DNA from: Sphingomonas edaphi | GTDB lineage: Bacteria; Pseudomonadota; Alphaproteobacteria; Sphingomonadales; Sphingomonadaceae | Reading direction: 5' to 3' | DNA: 64,000 nucleotides | Assembly (NCBI RefSeq): GCF_003583725.1 | Contig: NZ_QXTF01000001.1 | Span: 496,001-560,000 of the forward strand | In this document: in pieces, positions 52,488-62,251 of the stretch | Numbering within the stretch: position 1 is the first letter of the stretch | How the letters are laid out: each line of letters starts with the position of its first letter | Notes under the pieces: model-generated | Told to the model about the DNA's origin: nothing | The model's input: the letters and a program-made list of their open reading frames with translations, nothing else | The model's database searches: none | Made by a program: the position numbers and the translations under genes

Positions 52488-52563
52488 GGGGCCGTAGCTC
52501 AGCTGGGAGAGCGTCGCAATGGCATTGCGAAGGTCAGGGGTTCGATCCCCCTCGGCTCCACCA
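52488..52563 (+). tRNA. tRNA-Ala(GGC), island attachment site
   Basis: Acceptor GGGGCCG pairs with CGGCTCC (one G-U), discriminator A and encoded CCA; the anticodon loop ATGGCAT in stem TCGCA/TGCGA gives GGC (reads GCC). Its 3' end is part of the 28-bp direct repeat repeated at 62224-62251, so the island restored the tRNA on integration. Its native terminator now lies 9.7 kb away at 62258. Confidence 0.97.
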
Positions 52564-52567
52564 TCCG
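52540..52567 (+). repeat. Left attachment repeat (attL)
   Basis: The 28-base sequence from the T-loop GTTCGATCC through the encoded CCA and TCCG is identical to 62224-62251. It overlaps the 3' 24 bases of tRNA-Ala. Confidence 0.93.
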
Positions 52568-52655: not shown

Positions 52656-54200
52656 ATGTGCCTGTACCTCACCAAGCGTAACTCCACCTACTACTTCCGC
52701 CGCATCGTTCCCCCGGAGCTTCGTCCGATTTTGGGGAAGCGGGAGTTCATGTTCTCGCTGAACACGAAGGAAAAGGACGAGGCCAAGCGACTTCGCTCTG
52801 CGCACGCCGTACGGACCGATCGATTGATTGGGGAGGCATGGGCCAGCCTGTCACCCCCCGCGCGCCCTGCGGTCCCTCCAGCGGCCTGTATGGAGGTCTC
52901 GGAGGAGCAGTTGGCGATGGAGCAGGCTGAACTCCAGGAAGTGCTAGAAAAGGAGGAGCGCCGCGAGGAGCTAGCCGAGTACATCGCCTTCCTTGAGGAC
53001 CGGCTCAAAGGTTCAACCCGTGAAATGCCGCGAGAACTTCGGGCGTTCCGATACATCCTAGAGGGTCGCCAGTTCGACAATGACCTTCTCTCTGACCAGT
53101 TGTTGGTCTCTCGGGTTGAGAAACGGGAACTGGAGAAGAAGCTGGAAGGGGCAAGCGCATCCTCCCCGCTCGCCATTCCCGAGGCTTCCGAGACCAATGC
53201 TGGAGCCATGCTGGACACGACCATCGTGGACCTTTGGGCCGCCGAGAAGAAGCCAAGGCAGAAGGGTATCGACGCCCATAGGTCGGTAGCCCGCTGGCTG
53301 TATGATCGCATTGGCAGCAAGCCAGTCGATCAACTAGCGAGAGCCGACTTCCTCGCTTTCAAGGCCAAGCTGGTCGATGAGGGCCAATCCCCAGCGAACA
53401 TCAAGCAAAAGCTGTCCCGTCTGCGGACGCTCATGCAGTGGGCGTTCGACAACGGCTACGCTGACAGCAATCCGGCAGCGGGGGTGACGATCAAGGATGC
53501 GCAGGCAGCGAAGAACAAGCGGCTGCCATTCGACCTTTCGTCGCTAACCGCCATCTTCTCCAGTCCCGTGTTCACGCAAGGCGAGCGGCCAGTAAGGCTG
53601 CGTGGCGAGGCGGGCTATTGGCTTCCCCTGCTCGCGCTATTCACTGGCGCGCGACTGGAGGAGCTTGGGCAGCTTCGGCCCAAGGATGTAGCCGAGCGGA
53701 CTTACGCCGACAGCGACGGACAACAGCGGTCCGCTTGGTTCATCCACATTCGTGAGGATGCGGAGGACGGGCTGAAGCTCAAGACTGCGGAAAGCGCCCG
53801 CCACATTCCAGTCCACGGGGAACTCGTCAGGCTGGGCTTCTTGTTGTTTGTGTCTGCGGCGAAAGCAGCCAATCAGCAACGGCTCTTCCCACTGCTTCGA
53901 CCCGACAAGTACGGCAGCCTAACTGCCAAGTGGGGTGAAAACTGGAGCATCTATCGCCGGACGGTTTGCGGCGTGTCCGACCGCCGAATGGTGTTCCATT
54001 CCTTCCGCCATACCTTCAAGGACTACACTCGGCTGGCCGGCATTGAAGAAGGCATCCAGCGCCAGCTAATGGGGCATAGTGCTAGGGATGTGGCAGATGA
54101 CTATGGCAGCGGCCACTGGGACCATCAGCTAGTGGAAGCCATGAAAAGATACAGGGTGCCAGGGCTAGACCTGACTGCCGCTCCCCAAGGTTCCAGCTAG
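52656..54200 (+). CDS. Tyrosine integrase of the island
   Basis: The 514-residue recombinase starts with a DUF6538-like arm-binding segment (YLTKRNSTYYFRRIVPPELRPILGKREF), a core-binding region (about 190-290) and a C-terminal catalytic domain: Arg in TGARLEELGQL, Lys in LKTAESARHIPVH, HSFRHTFKDY, and LMGHSARDVADDYG containing the nucleophilic Tyr. It faces away from tRNA-Ala, the expected position for the integrase that recombines at this att site. ATG 52656 follows the TTACATC inverted repeat. Convergent with and overlapping the next gene by 36 bp. Confidence 0.95.
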   Translation: MCLYLTKRNSTYYFRRIVPPELRPILGKREFMFSLNTKEKDEAKRLRSAHAVRTDRLIGEAWASLSPPARPAVPPAACMEVSEEQLAMEQAELQEVLEKEERREELAEYIAFLEDRLKGSTREMPRELRAFRYILEGRQFDNDLLSDQLLVSRVEKRELEKKLEGASASSPLAIPEASETNAGAMLDTTIVDLWAAEKKPRQKGIDAHRSVARWLYDRIGSKPVDQLARADFLAFKAKLVDEGQSPANIKQKLSRLRTLMQWAFDNGYADSNPAAGVTIKDAQAAKNKRLPFDLSSLTAIFSSPVFTQGERPVRLRGEAGYWLPLLALFTGARLEELGQLRPKDVAERTYADSDGQQRSAWFIHIREDAEDGLKLKTAESARHIPVHGELVRLGFLLFVSAAKAANQQRLFPLLRPDKYGSLTAKWGENWSIYRRTVCGVSDRRMVFHSFRHTFKDYTRLAGIEEGIQRQLMGHSARDVADDYGSGHWDHQLVEAMKRYRVPGLDLTAAPQGSS

Positions 54201-55719: not shown

Positions 55720-56424
55720 CTACGCTTGTTTGAGAGCCTCTTCCAAGCTCCGGCGATGCAGGAAGGTATCAGGCCCAATCTGGTCGGGTGGAAGCGTGCC
55801 ATGCTCGGCAGCCAGAGCGGCAAGGACCGACCAACGGTCGGCAGGTCGCCCACCGGCATCCCTCAAGCTATTCGAGTTCAGCGGAACGGTTCTCCGCACC
55901 AAGTCTGCCACGGTGACAAACCCAGCCGGAAAGCGGCCCGGGTCAAGTCGGAGCAACGGCAGGCCCGCAAGCGCGATCAGGCCGAAGATGCTGCTTACAA
56001 TCCAGTGGCCCGTGAGCAGGGCGACGATTGCCGCGATTATGCCTCCGACCAACAGGCCGCCACCCATCATGCCGAGCCATGTTAGTTCGTAAGACGGAAG
56101 CCTAAGGCCCGTTTCATCGGCCAGCTTCTTGAACATGCGGCTAGGCTGCATCCCGCTGGCGGCCAGCGCCGTGTCGGGCGTGATACCGCGCTTGTCGTCC
56201 GGGGAAAGCGAACGCCGCATCCGGTAGAACACCATGGATGAGCCGCAGCTACCGTCCTGGCCATTCCAATCGGGCGAGTGGCTGCACACCACGTCGTACA
56301 AGCCACCAACCGTGGCGCATTGCTCGGCTTCTTCATTCGCAATCTTAATGCCGAAAGTAGCTTCGACCTCTTCGAGCAGATCGATCGCACCCCATTCCGG
56401 GTCGAGGTCTAGTGAGTTGGCCAT
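55720..56424 (-). CDS. Acyl-carrier-like domain with two TM helices, unknown
   Basis: A 234-residue protein. The N-terminal 45 residues (DPEWGAIDLLEEVEATFGIKIANEEAEQCATVGGLYDVVCS) follow the helix pattern of acyl carrier proteins, but the Ser of the DSL motif that takes phosphopantetheine is not at its place (WGAIDLLEEV), so it is probably not a working carrier. TM helices follow at about 130-175 (GMMGGGLLVGGIIAAIVALLTG and IVSSIFGLIALAG). Start ATG 56424. Similar proteins occur in sphingomonads, sometimes duplicated (memory). It is divergent from the propeller lipoprotein gene. Confidence 0.6.
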   Translation of the reverse strand: MANSLDLDPEWGAIDLLEEVEATFGIKIANEEAEQCATVGGLYDVVCSHSPDWNGQDGSCGSSMVFYRMRRSLSPDDKRGITPDTALAASGMQPSRMFKKLADETGLRLPSYELTWLGMMGGGLLVGGIIAAIVALLTGHWIVSSIFGLIALAGLPLLRLDPGRFPAGFVTVADLVRRTVPLNSNSLRDAGGRPADRWSVLAALAAEHGTLPPDQIGPDTFLHRRSLEEALKQA

Positions 56425-56553
56425 GCTCTGATAATGCGCCCAAGTACATCCGGTCGCAACTCGACTGCTAGACGACAGGTCGTTGAGTGGGCTGGAGCGA
56501 CAGTTCAACCGGCAGGCATTGACGACCAGCGCCCGTCAGGCATCATTCCAGCC

Positions 56554-57768: not shown

Positions 57769-58428
57769 TTATGAGGCTCCCGAACTGGCGATCACCCGCG
57801 CAACTTGCGTGGCCTTCCATTTGCCCCCTCGGCTAGTGCGGACGCCATTCGCATTGAGATGCCGCGCCAGTTCGGAAAGGCCGGTCACACCTTGCCGTTG
57901 AAGATCGGCGATAGCCTCCCCCACGCGAGTATTGAACGACTGCGCTTGCTTCCGCTTTGCTGCGGTACCCAATGCGGGGTTGACCTTAACTCCGCGAAAC
58001 CCGCCGAGCCTGGCACCTCTCGCCTTCGCCGCCTGCAATGCTGCCTTGGTGCGCTCGGAAATCATGTTCCGCTCATGCTCAGCCATGGCCGCGTAAATGT
58101 GGACAGTCAGGCGGCTGGCGCTTGGCTGGTCGCAGGCCACAAAGTCCACCTTGCTATCCATTAGCTGGGCAATGAACGACACCGCACGGGACAGGCGGTC
58201 TAGCTTGGCAACCAGTAGCGTTGCGCCCGTAAGCTCGACATGCCGTAATGCCTTGGCCAGTTCCGGCCGGTCGCTATCCGCTCCGCTCTCAATCTCAACG
58301 AACGTAGCTAGCAGTTGATCGTCGGGCCTTAGATACTGTTGGATAGCAGCCTCTTGCGCCTCTAACCCTAGCCCCGAGCTTCCCTGCTTGGCAGTCGATA
58401 CGCGGACATACGCAACAAACTTGGCCAT
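57769..58428 (-). CDS. Small serine recombinase (resolvase/invertase)
   Basis: A 219-residue recombinase: FVAYVRVSTAKQ gives the nucleophilic Ser, followed by LLVAKLDRLSRAVSF, the Arg/Asp/Arg signature, and MAEHERNMISERTKAALQAAKARG, the long E-helix. A helix-turn-helix C-terminus (GVTGLSELARHLNANGVRTSRGG) binds DNA. It is of the Hin/Tn3 resolvase class rather than a large phage integrase. A 26-bp inverted repeat directly upstream could be its recombination or operator site. Its exact role in the island is unknown. Confidence 0.92.
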   Translation of the reverse strand: MAKFVAYVRVSTAKQGSSGLGLEAQEAAIQQYLRPDDQLLATFVEIESGADSDRPELAKALRHVELTGATLLVAKLDRLSRAVSFIAQLMDSKVDFVACDQPSASRLTVHIYAAMAEHERNMISERTKAALQAAKARGARLGGFRGVKVNPALGTAAKRKQAQSFNTRVGEAIADLQRQGVTGLSELARHLNANGVRTSRGGKWKATQVARVIASSGAS

Positions 58429-58610: not shown

Positions 58611-59321
58611 CTAGCTGTCCCTATTCATCTTCCGTGGTCGGTACTCGGCCCATCTCCAAGTGTCCGGGTCCGGTAAGGCAACTCGAAGCAATGGAACGCC
58701 ACACGTTTCGCACCTAAGTCTCAATGTCCTTACGGTGGACAGTTTCGTCTGCGGTTCCCTGCCCTCTAATGGCACTGGGGCCATGTAACCGCACCTATCG
58801 CATTGCAGACTGAGTTGGATTTCGTCCTCAAGTGCTTCGGCAACTGTAAAATCCCAAAGCCGATCAATCGGCACCGATGCTAGACCGTTGGGCGGCTCCC
58901 TTGTTCGATGTTCTGACCATTGATTTGCTAGCTCGTAACCGAGCCATACATACCGTCGCGCCCAAACGGTTTCAGCGATTAGGGCAGTGAGACAACTGGG
59001 CGCGGTGTCGATTATCTCAAATCGAGGAACGACCCATTTGGCCATGATCTTCTTGAGCCGGCCCGTCTTGATGCCGCTGTCTGTCGAACCTCCGCCAGCG
59101 TCACGCATGTGATTATCGGCGCGAACCCGAACCTGCTTGCTTTCGCCGACATAGACCGGCGGCCCATACTTAAATCGCCCTCGATGATCTTGCAGCGAAG
59201 GGTCATGAATGGCGTAGATGACGTGACCCTGGCCCTCTGCGAGGCTGCCTATTCTGTCGACCTCCGCCCTAATCTCAGCCTGAAAAGCGCGAAGCCGTGG
59301 ATCTTTTGTGTAACGCCGCAC
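58611..59321 (-). CDS. GIY-YIG-like protein with C-terminal zinc ribbon
   Basis: A 236-residue protein. HVIYAIHDP (residues about 33-41) and PVYVGESKQVRVRADNH (about 55-71) correspond to the GIY and YIG strands and the following Arg/His helix of GIY-YIG nucleases, and IAETVWARRY (about 112) may provide the catalytic Glu. The last 70 residues hold two Cys pairs (CDRCGY and CETCG) of a zinc ribbon. It is thus a likely DNA- or RNA-cleaving protein. It is convergent with the serine recombinase only in distance and divergent from the ATPase operon, whose start lies 98 bp away. Confidence 0.65.
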   Translation of the reverse strand: MRRYTKDPRLRAFQAEIRAEVDRIGSLAEGQGHVIYAIHDPSLQDHRGRFKYGPPVYVGESKQVRVRADNHMRDAGGGSTDSGIKTGRLKKIMAKWVVPRFEIIDTAPSCLTALIAETVWARRYVWLGYELANQWSEHRTREPPNGLASVPIDRLWDFTVAEALEDEIQLSLQCDRCGYMAPVPLEGREPQTKLSTVRTLRLRCETCGVPLLRVALPDPDTWRWAEYRPRKMNRDS

Positions 59322-59418: not shown

Positions 59419-59622
59419 GTGACAACCGATAGCATTGTAGATGCCAACCCCAGCAACTTCGATCGGCTGCGAGCGCACCTGTCGGCGGAAGGTCTGGCTT
59501 GCCACCTCTTAGACGGCTGGCTCGCAGACCGTACGAAGTCCGCCGAGGAACTCCTCTCCGACCTCGAAGCATTTTACGACAGCAAGGAACCCGACGTTGC
59601 GGCCCAACATCAAGAGGGTTGA
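59419..59622 (+). CDS. 67-residue protein coupled to the SMC-like ATPase
   Basis: A short acidic, helical protein (TTDSIVDANPSNFDRLRAHLSAEGLACHLLDGWLADRTKSAEELLSDLEAFYDSK). GTG 59419 is chosen because GGAGG is 10 bases upstream; a longer frame from 59326 has no ribosome site. It overlaps the ATPase start by 26 bp, so the two are translated together, the way small partners of SMC-like ATPases often are. No family was recognised. Its start is 98 bp from the divergent GIY-YIG-like gene. Confidence 0.65.
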   Translation: MTTDSIVDANPSNFDRLRAHLSAEGLACHLLDGWLADRTKSAEELLSDLEAFYDSKEPDVAAQHQEG

Positions 59623-62113
59623 AGTCCAAGGCTTCAGAAGCTTCGGCAGCGGTCGTCAATCAGTCGACCTATCGGACACAGTATCGGCGTTTTGGGGCGG
59701 GAATAGCCAAGGCAAGACCAGCCTTGCCGAGGCATTTGAGTTCCTGCTCACTGGCCAGATTATCCGCCGCGACATGCAAGGAAGTTCAAAAGATGAGTTC
59801 TCAGACGCCCTTCGTAATGCACATCTAGCAAGCACCGCCTTGGTCCAGGTCGCTGCCGACATTGCGTGCGCGGATGGCATAACGAGGAAGCTAACTCGCA
59901 CGTTGGTTGGGGACTACAACAAGTCCACTACAGCCTGCACAAGCAAGCTCGAAATCGACGGAAAGCCAGCGGCGGAGCCAGACCTCCAATCAGTTTTGGG
60001 CATCAAGCTTTCGCAGCGTCCTCTGCAAGCGCCCGTCTTAGCGCAGCATACTTTAGGGTACGTTTTCTCCACCCCGCCGAACGATCGAGCAACCTACTTT
60101 CGCGCTGTTCTCGACACACAAGACCTTGAAGATTTTCGTCAAGCCGTGGCGAGCCTTAGTCCACTACTATCGACGCCAGAGCTAGAGGGGCTGCGCAATC
60201 TCGCGGCGGTTGAGGGTATCACGTCGGACCTTCCATCCGCTGCGCTTATCCGACGCTCCGAGACGTTAGAAAGCGCATCGACTGCTCTAGGGGACACGGT
60301 CAGTGAACTGTTAGCTTCGATTTCCGTCACCCCTGAAGGGCCGCTTGCTAACCGCGCCAATCAACTTGAACAGTCACTTGAGGTCATACAGTCCAAAACG
60401 TTTCCGCTAGCGCTGTTTGGACGGAAGGCGGACGTTGCATGGGTAGACCTCCCTCCCAATGCAAAGGATGTCATCCAACAGTTCGAAACCGAAAAGTCCG
60501 CAATCGAGCTAGAGGCTAGGCGGTTGGTTGGCCTCTATAGTGCTGCGCTATCTTTGCCTGAAGTCGCTTCTCAGGAGGGTGACGCAGACTGCCCCCTTTG
60601 TCTCACGCCCCATGCGTTTACCGAGGCGCGAAGGGATGCGCTCAAGACAGAACTGCAAAAGGCTGAAACGTACCAGTTGGCTGAAGCCAATCTACGGTCG
60701 CTTTTGGGTTCGATTGATCATGCTCTTGAGTTGCTATCAACGAATGTCGTGGCTGCGTTGCCCAAGTTAGTCTCGGCTGGCCCATCAGAAAGAAGGTCTG
60801 CGGGATTTACGACAGCCAGACTGGTCGAGTTGTCAGGCAATCGCTCCTTAGTTGAGGCGTGGACCCGTGCGCTGCTCAAACTCTGTCGGGTAGCCTATGC
60901 TCTGTTGCGTGTGGTCCGGTCCGCCAAGGCGATGGTGCAGTCGCTCCTAGATGACATTGAGAAATGGCAAGGCGCGGAACCTCTATCCGCTTTGCTGCGC
61001 GAGGCACGACGATTGTGTGCCGCACTTCAAGAAGAGGCTGCCGAGTACGCCGGTCCGACCCAAGCAGTCTATGAGCCGATTAAGAAAGTCGTCGACCAAA
61101 GCACCATCACCACAGGCTGGAGCGCTCTAATCGATTGTTGCACCAACCCGCGATCACTTGTGGCCGACTTAGATACGGCTCGCCGCCTTGAAGCCAGGCG
61201 TAAGGATTTGGAAAAGGCGTTGAAGGAAATCGATGCAGCCAACGGCAAGGTTCAGGACGAGAAACTGTCGGACCTTAGTTCTCAAGTTGTTGAGTGGTGG
61301 GAAAGGTTGCGCCCTGAGGAAAGCACCTACTTTGAAGGCGTACAGCGCCGCAGTCCCACCGCACGCCGTACTATCGATCTACGAGTTGCGCTTTCGCCCA
61401 ATGAGGATCGAACGGAGGCCAAACCGAGAAACGCCGTAGCGGTATTAAGTCAGTCCCAACTTCACTGTTTAGGTTTGGCCTTGTTTCTTGCGAGAGCCGT
61501 AAAGGAGGGTTCGACCTTTCTTGTTCTCGACGACCCCGTCCTTTCAAGTGACGATGACTTTAGACCCAACTTCAATAGCAGCGTGATTGAAGCCCTTATT
61601 GCTCAGGGCATCCAAGTGATCATCCTCACCCAAGACCATAAGAGTTGGAAGGACATTGGCCATCGATGGTCGCATCGTGGCGCGGTTCAGCTACAGATTT
61701 TGCGCAGCGACCCACGCATTGGGTCAGAGCTACGTAGCGCAAGCGACACATTGGCAACGATGCTCGGAAAGGCGCAGCCACTGATTAGGTCGCAAGAGCC
61801 TGATCAGCGCAAAGAAGGGGCCATGATGTTGAGGCAGGCGATAGAACGCTTCAGCAAAGAGCTTATTGTGAGGGATAGAGTTAGTCGCGGTGACAGCAAT
61901 GCGTCGATCACTGACTATGACGGCAAGGACTTCGGCACGTACAGTGCGCAGGCTCACAGCTTGCTCAGCAAAGACCCAGCGGACCCCGGCAAACTCACTG
62001 CCGCTTATGCAAACGTTACCTCCGGTCCCCACGACGATGTGCCACCTTCGTTGGCACAACTAGTCCATGCCAGTGGCGACATTAGGAAACTGAAAAAGGA
62101 CTATCTCCCCTAA
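59597..62113 (+). CDS. SMC/Rad50-like ATPase with CxxC hook
   Basis: An 838-residue protein. Walker A is GGNSQGKTS (residues 34-42), a zinc-hook-like CPLC sits at 332-335 between two coiled-coil halves, the ABC signature-like segment LSQSQLHCLGLALFLAR is at 617-633, Walker B FLVLDDPVLSSDD at 641-653 and TQDH (678-681) is in the H-loop place. A further 150-residue helical C-terminal region follows (LRQAIERFSKELI). The start is TTG 59597 with AAGGA 8 bases upstream. This is the family used in DNA repair and in many defence systems; the exact one is unknown. It ends 110 bp before the island end. Confidence 0.83.
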   Translation: MRPNIKRVEVQGFRSFGSGRQSVDLSDTVSAFWGGNSQGKTSLAEAFEFLLTGQIIRRDMQGSSKDEFSDALRNAHLASTALVQVAADIACADGITRKLTRTLVGDYNKSTTACTSKLEIDGKPAAEPDLQSVLGIKLSQRPLQAPVLAQHTLGYVFSTPPNDRATYFRAVLDTQDLEDFRQAVASLSPLLSTPELEGLRNLAAVEGITSDLPSAALIRRSETLESASTALGDTVSELLASISVTPEGPLANRANQLEQSLEVIQSKTFPLALFGRKADVAWVDLPPNAKDVIQQFETEKSAIELEARRLVGLYSAALSLPEVASQEGDADCPLCLTPHAFTEARRDALKTELQKAETYQLAEANLRSLLGSIDHALELLSTNVVAALPKLVSAGPSERRSAGFTTARLVELSGNRSLVEAWTRALLKLCRVAYALLRVVRSAKAMVQSLLDDIEKWQGAEPLSALLREARRLCAALQEEAAEYAGPTQAVYEPIKKVVDQSTITTGWSALIDCCTNPRSLVADLDTARRLEARRKDLEKALKEIDAANGKVQDEKLSDLSSQVVEWWERLRPEESTYFEGVQRRSPTARRTIDLRVALSPNEDRTEAKPRNAVAVLSQSQLHCLGLALFLARAVKEGSTFLVLDDPVLSSDDDFRPNFNSSVIEALIAQGIQVIILTQDHKSWKDIGHRWSHRGAVQLQILRSDPRIGSELRSASDTLATMLGKAQPLIRSQEPDQRKEGAMMLRQAIERFSKELIVRDRVSRGDSNASITDYDGKDFGTYSAQAHSLLSKDPADPGKLTAAYANVTSGPHDDVPPSLAQLVHASGDIRKLKKDYLP

Positions 62114-62223: not shown

Positions 62224-62251
62224 GTTCGATCCCCCTCGGCTCCACCATCCG
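62224..62251 (+). repeat. Right attachment repeat (attR)
   Basis: Exact 28-base copy of 52540-52567. It is only the 3' part of tRNA-Ala, not a second tRNA. Confidence 0.93.

Follow-up and report, generated by a model that had tools for sequence, protein, structure and literature searches.

The 64,000-nucleotide stretch of the Sphingomonas edaphi genome analysed here (the window; contig NZ_QXTF01000001.1, positions 496,001 to 560,000) carries two overlapping genes, coding for a small protein of 67 residues and for an 838-residue ATPase with a Rad50-like ATP-binding cassette (ABC) head, a zinc hook and an extra C-terminal domain. On balance we favour a reading of the pair as a mobile suicide-defence module of two genes, which would combine the Rad50-like ABC ATPase and a C-terminal HEPN-type ribonuclease (RNase) with a small dedicated regulator. 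The module probably serves as a back-up defence against phages, shutting down the infected cell, because its distant relatives are often located right behind DNA restriction systems. A sequence-only reading of the same DNA had proposed an anti-phage module, but it overlooked both the HEPN-like domain at the C-terminus and the association with restriction operons.

The ATPase and its C-terminal domain

Positions are counted from the first letter of the window, and features lie on the + strand unless marked otherwise. The small open reading frame (59419-59622) begins with GTG, with GGAGGA ahead of the start, and shares 26 bp with the ATPase frame (59597-62113), which begins with TTG and has AAGGA shortly before it, inside the small gene. 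Both frames, their overlap and the Walker A, CPLC, LSQSQ and Walker B motifs are located where the sequence-only reading had put them. The ATPase is a single-copy gene in the source genome.

A search with the ATPase gave 446 matches, 120 of them listed; 21 proteins were placed in one alignment (A1) and 66 in another (A2), with rows that were chosen manually and are for the most part full-length, and the 66-row counts below leave 54 of the 120 listed matches outside. The following residues of the Rad50/SMC-like head and its hook are invariant in the 66 rows: K40 of the Walker A motif GGNSQGKTS (residues 34-42, 59696-59722), C332 and C335 of the zinc-hook CPLC (residues 332-335, 60590-60601), S620 of the ABC signature LSQSQ (residues 617-621, 61445-61459), and D645 and D646, held by LDDPVLSSDD, in the Walker B motif and D-loop (FLVLDDPVLSSD, residues 641-652, 61517-61552). 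In structural matching, Rad50/SMC heads rank best, and the predicted model places the CPLC hook in the stretch between helices 321-324 and 343-387. At the H-loop position (VIILTQD, 61616-61636) the usual His is replaced by Gln (LTQD) in 66/66 relatives, Q679 being invariant; this may mean altered ATP hydrolysis.

The head is followed by a helical domain (residues about 718-838, 61748-62110), whose predicted structure is best matched by HEPN folds; the model thus supports a HEPN-type fold. Five polar residues of this domain are invariant in all 66 aligned relatives. R746-x3-E750-x3-K754 lie on one helix (61832-61858), and H812-D813 (62030-62035) are conserved also in 20/21 rows of A1, the remaining row (P0097, one of the 54 listed matches outside A2) having a C-terminus in which the last ~80 residues are unalignable and H812 is missing; both groups are presumed to belong to the active site. 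As judged by residues, the R/E/K/H/D set resembles the triad of the anticodon nuclease RloC. The Ex3[KR] motif of HEPN domains is present as E750-x3-K754 (66/66), but there is no counterpart of the Rx4-6H motif, with no conserved Arg 4-6 residues ahead of H812; the triad of RloC/PrrC is given as R-x3-E...H. Pfam HEPN models gave no match to four C-terminal domains at E up to 10, nor was any match found in a viral structure library at E 0.001, and none of four family libraries has a specific model for the ATPase, or any model for the small protein. The homologue at locus L012 (L012:10200-10610), which was excluded from the residue check, has an open reading frame ending near residue 767, within the HEPN-like domain, and is followed by what is presumably insertion-sequence coding; it is possibly a naturally inactivated copy.

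The small partner protein

Two peptide patterns, run against a collection of genomes described as covering 84,980 species, identified 13 related loci; a fourteenth (L054) was added from a search of 391 genomes belonging to a single family. Locus L007 lacks the 5' part, leaving 13 other loci with DNA before the ATPase. The small-protein motif, N-x2-R-L-x2-H-L-x4-L-A-x2-L-L, which is the conserved core, occurs directly upstream of the ATPase, once per locus, in the window and in 13/13 of these loci, though the pattern was derived from the window and 12 of the 13, and only L054 tests its presence independently. The control is absence elsewhere: a six-frame translation of 280,635 bp has 14 occurrences of the motif, none of them away from the ATPase. 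In 12/12 measured cases (the window and 11 loci) the two genes overlap by 8-29 bp and the phase of the overlap is the same; the start codons at the loci were chosen by us, and the lengths depend on this choice, whereas the phase does not. Across the same 12 loci the divergence of the small protein is correlated with that of the ATPase (r 0.91, reached by 0/9999 permutations). The ratio of nonsynonymous to synonymous substitution rates (dN/dS) is 0.12-0.40 in 3/5 compared pairs, with dS of 2 or more in two of the three; in the other 2/5 dS could not be estimated.

The small gene is real. As the sequence-only reading had supposed, it is a genuine partner that accompanies the ATPase in 14/14 loci with 5' DNA, including the window, and its frame is conserved across related loci. 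A profile search with the small protein, with E 0.1 as the limit, gave 108 proteins, including the window's own, and no Pfam domain in any of them. Among the 13 measured, length varies from 63 to 88 residues, and the sequence varies outside the core helix. The isoelectric point is below 6 in 11/13 and ranges from 4.1 to 8.0, a span that weakens the idea of a DNA mimic, which was considered for an acidic protein of this size.

Genomic setting of the module

The sequence-only reading had placed the pair among the cargo of a tRNA island, and this is supported: the module is the final cargo of a 9.7-kb island. The island is bounded by a 28-bp perfect repeat (left copy 52540-52567, right copy 62224-62251) of the 3' end of tRNA-Ala (52488-52563), and an integrase gene adjoins the tRNA (52656-54200; PHROG integrase, 96.6 bits; in Pfam, DUF6538 is over the cut-off and integrase domains are under it). 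A comparison of the right flank with 41 genus genomes in search of an empty attachment site gave weak matches only.

At the other loci, the same-strand genes just upstream code for type II, IIG or III restriction or BREX (bacteriophage exclusion) proteins in 7/13 cases, as a raw count. Restriction genes generally number a few per few thousand genes. A type III res gene precedes the pair in L002 (gap 12 bp) and L008 (536 bp), and a BsuBI/PstI-type restriction endonuclease gene, itself preceded by a methylase gene, in L004 (39 bp) and L012 (190 bp). L013 has a type IIG enzyme (14 bp), and L005 a IIG-like methylase followed by one short DUF6998 frame, which overlaps by 11, before the small gene. 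In L011 the module lies between BrxC (6 bp upstream) and PglX (6 bp after the ATPase). The remaining loci show an integrase, with relaxase and ArdC farther up (L003); a methyltransferase without a DNA-methylase match (L006); a gene of unknown family, alike by eye, in L009 and L010; an unknown gene with AbiEii beyond (L014); and an insertion sequence with subtilase and SIR2 genes beyond (L054). AbiEii near L014, an SNF2 helicase near L010, and SIR2 and subtilase near L054 were not counted as restriction. The gene shared by L009 and L010, which stands directly before the small gene (L009:412-993 and L010:6984-7754), may supply a third component to one branch of the family.

No restriction gene was seen among the scanned proteins of the window's own island. 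A type III restriction-modification pair is located elsewhere in the same genome (L075:2146-6620, - strand), about 270 kb from the module, so that action in trans is possible.

The distribution of the module is sporadic. The ATPase was found in 1/385 genomes of its class, namely the window's own, in a search that scored at most two candidates per genome, and in 0/36 other genomes of its genus. In the family to which the genome of L008 belongs, 2/391 genomes have the module, one being the genome of L008 itself. No relative was seen in viral contigs or phage records, and plasmids gave two partial matches.

Several other island genes deserve mention. A serine recombinase (Resolvase, 57769-58428, - strand) is present in addition to the integrase, and L013 likewise has a resolvase near the module. 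The protein encoded at 55720-56508 (- strand) shows weak similarity to acyl carrier proteins over one stretch (Pfam PP-binding, sub-threshold at 17.6 bits; PHROG acyl carrier protein, 24.5 bits). The gene at 58611-59321 (- strand) had been called GIY-YIG-like from motifs seen by eye, and joint action with the module had been suggested. Its product has two CxxC pairs, and there is no match to GIY-YIG or nuclease families in Pfam, PADLOC or NCBIfam. The gene has no match in any of the 14 other loci, and we reject it as a partner; with the HEPN-like domain fused to the C-terminus of the ATPase, no separate nuclease gene is needed.

Relation to known systems

By analogy of architecture, the closest known system appears to be RloC/PrrC rather than Lamassu or the ABC-three-component type, which the sequence-only reading had named; the defence-like setting that it had proposed is supported. 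RloC likewise has an ABC head, a CxxC hook and, at the C-terminus, a HEPN-type domain in which R-x3-E is followed later by a His, and its size of 658-897 residues is similar (PMC2610378). The motifs of the PrrC/RloC ABC ATPases are all present in the module (K40, S620, D645 and D646 in 66/66), except for the switch His, which is Gln here and unlike RloC; the CxxC hook in a coiled-coil insert is present in sequence (C332/C335, 66/66) and in the model; and a Walker B motif with DDP is common to the module ATPase and the aligned AAA_13 proteins. There is also a similarity in genomic habit. RloC was found at type I/III restriction loci in 8/72 cases (PMC2610378), RloC-family HEPN proteins occur sporadically in Pgl operons (PMC3710099), and ArdC, known near two RloC genes (PMC2610378, PMC3710099), is present at one locus here (L003). 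Mutations in the hook raise the nuclease activity of RloC (PMC2610378).

There are, however, clear differences from RloC: the small partner in 14/14 loci, module neighbours that include type II and IIG besides type III and BREX, a score of 15.1 bits against the Pfam AAA_13 cut-off of 36, and a Glu-to-His spacing of 61 (64 rows) or 60 (two rows), instead of the Arg-x3-Glu-x36-52-His triad. Direct homology of the C-terminal domains was looked for with hhalign, using 14 of 18 extracted AAA_13 proteins (L040, L045, L050 and L051, being short, truncated or odd, were left out), and the result was not significant, with probability of 6% or less and a score of 5.0 versus 5.4 for the best of 30 decoys. 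The full-length profile does match the AAA_13 set (probability 98-99.6), mainly because of the shared ABC head. In a global alignment that includes the ABC tail, the R, E and H of both families fall in the same columns; with the tail removed, the global alignment is meaningless, and a local one pairs only the region of the His.

Pairs of CxC/DndD and DndE proteins from the Dnd and Pbe systems are similar in combining an ABC ATPase that has a hook or coiled coil with a small partner, in divergence of the partner that tracks that of the ATPase, and in modification-restriction genes alongside (PMC10853773). The module hook is CxxC, not CxC, no Dnd genes were seen among the neighbours scanned, and equating the 63-88-residue partner with DndE, which has two ribbon-helix-helix units (PMC10853773), would be speculative.

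The back-up theme itself is already known, since the proposal that HEPN RNases act as a back-up for restriction dates from 2013, when at least 16 HEPN clades were linked to restriction genes (PMC3710099). A 2026 survey of BREX describes BREX loci with back-up effectors of the OLD-ABC, HEPN, PIN and Schlafen types; RloC is not mentioned in its main text, nor is the present family described in the portions we consulted (PMC12839542). In the corresponding portions of the DefensePredictor paper, HEPN systems are mentioned, but no such pair (PMC13092281). A survey of the literature by titles and the beginnings of abstracts found no description of the pair; the 2020 classification of ABC ATPases (Krishnan et al.) stands outside this comparison and may list the clade.

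Alternative explanations

The module might be a toxin-antitoxin addiction pair that stabilises the island, the small gene being the antitoxin and the ABC-HEPN protein the toxin, with defence incidental. Gene order and overlap in 12/12 measured loci are antitoxin-like, HEPN toxins are known from toxin-antitoxin pairs (PMC3710099), and integrase or recombinase genes are found in the window, L002, L003, L004 and L013, with an insertion sequence in L054. Plain addiction, however, does not account for 7/13 loci standing right behind several kinds of restriction or BREX genes, and toxins are not usually carried by a Rad50-like protein driven by ATP; we consider this explanation unlikely.

A reduced Lamassu or ABC-three-component system, with the ATPase as a homologue of LmuB, the small protein as an LmuC-like subunit and the effector replaced by the fused C-terminal domain, appears likewise unlikely, although the best match in the defence library is indeed PADLOC LmuB (PDLC03859, residues 2-691, 69 bits), and the Lamassu structure 9hqx_B has Foldseek rank 21. 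LmuB is a relative of Rad50, often hooked, that may have a small partner (PMC10586767), and LmuABC has in common with the module a Rad50-like hooked ATPase, a small protein in the operon and a mobile defence setting. The module ATPase is nevertheless longer (838 residues versus about 650), carries a fused effector-like domain, and has D646 in 66/66 rows at the Walker B position where Gln replaces Glu in LmuB as generally described. No LmuA or LmuC was matched among the seven further proteins scanned in the window, which include the small one, or, at stricter cut-offs, among the scanned neighbours. The small protein matches no PADLOC model, LmuC included, and no Pfam model, although small families can be missed; some Lamassu systems are without LmuC (PMC10586767).

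A repair or recombination ATPase of the RecF/RecN/SbcC type with a structural, non-catalytic C-terminal domain is highly improbable: despite the best structural matches being Rad50/SMC heads and weak matches to RecF, SMC and Rad50 models (RecF 32.7 bits versus a cut-off of 172), a housekeeping role is rejected because the ATPase is sporadic, not being found in 384/385 class genomes searched or in 36/36 genus mates, and, unlike Rad50/SbcC, it has an extra domain, which carries invariant polar residues, and no Mre11/SbcD-type partner among the neighbouring genes scanned. Neither outcome that would have refuted the sequence-only reading, a housekeeping ATPase or a small frame without conservation, was observed.

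A possible mechanism and its implications

The RloC-like layout, with a HEPN-type domain attached to a hooked-arm ATPase of the DNA-sensing type, the small protein made together with the ATPase, and the habit of standing behind restriction and BREX genes lead us to take the pair as a back-up suicide RNase with its regulator. We infer the RNase activity, its RNA target, the role of the regulator, the trigger and the protection from phage, which may fit together as follows. The small protein, made before the ATPase and coupled to it, would be a dedicated regulator, either a brake on the enzyme or a licence for its activity. As long as the cell is healthy, this protein would act together with the hooked ATPase dimer to keep the HEPN sites inactive. 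The ATPase, associated with DNA or with a complex of the restriction or BREX machinery, would sense failed or blocked restriction or DNA ends made by the phage; ATP-driven movement of the heads would then open the HEPN sites, and the RNase would cleave RNA (by analogy, tRNA), so that translation halts and the infection ends.

More tentatively, we suggest that the pair may belong to a lineage of its own, separate from RloC/PrrC, of ABC-HEPN RNases that guard restriction, in which the small subunit is a sensor or a safety catch and which can be plugged in behind type II, IIG, III and BREX systems. If this is true, the ABC-HEPN proteins gain a lineage that has a small subunit in 14/14 loci examined and that turns up repeatedly behind restriction or BREX genes of four kinds. 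The small subunit would then be a compact candidate for the reporter of restriction failure, and the two-gene system could make the reporting of restriction failure testable.
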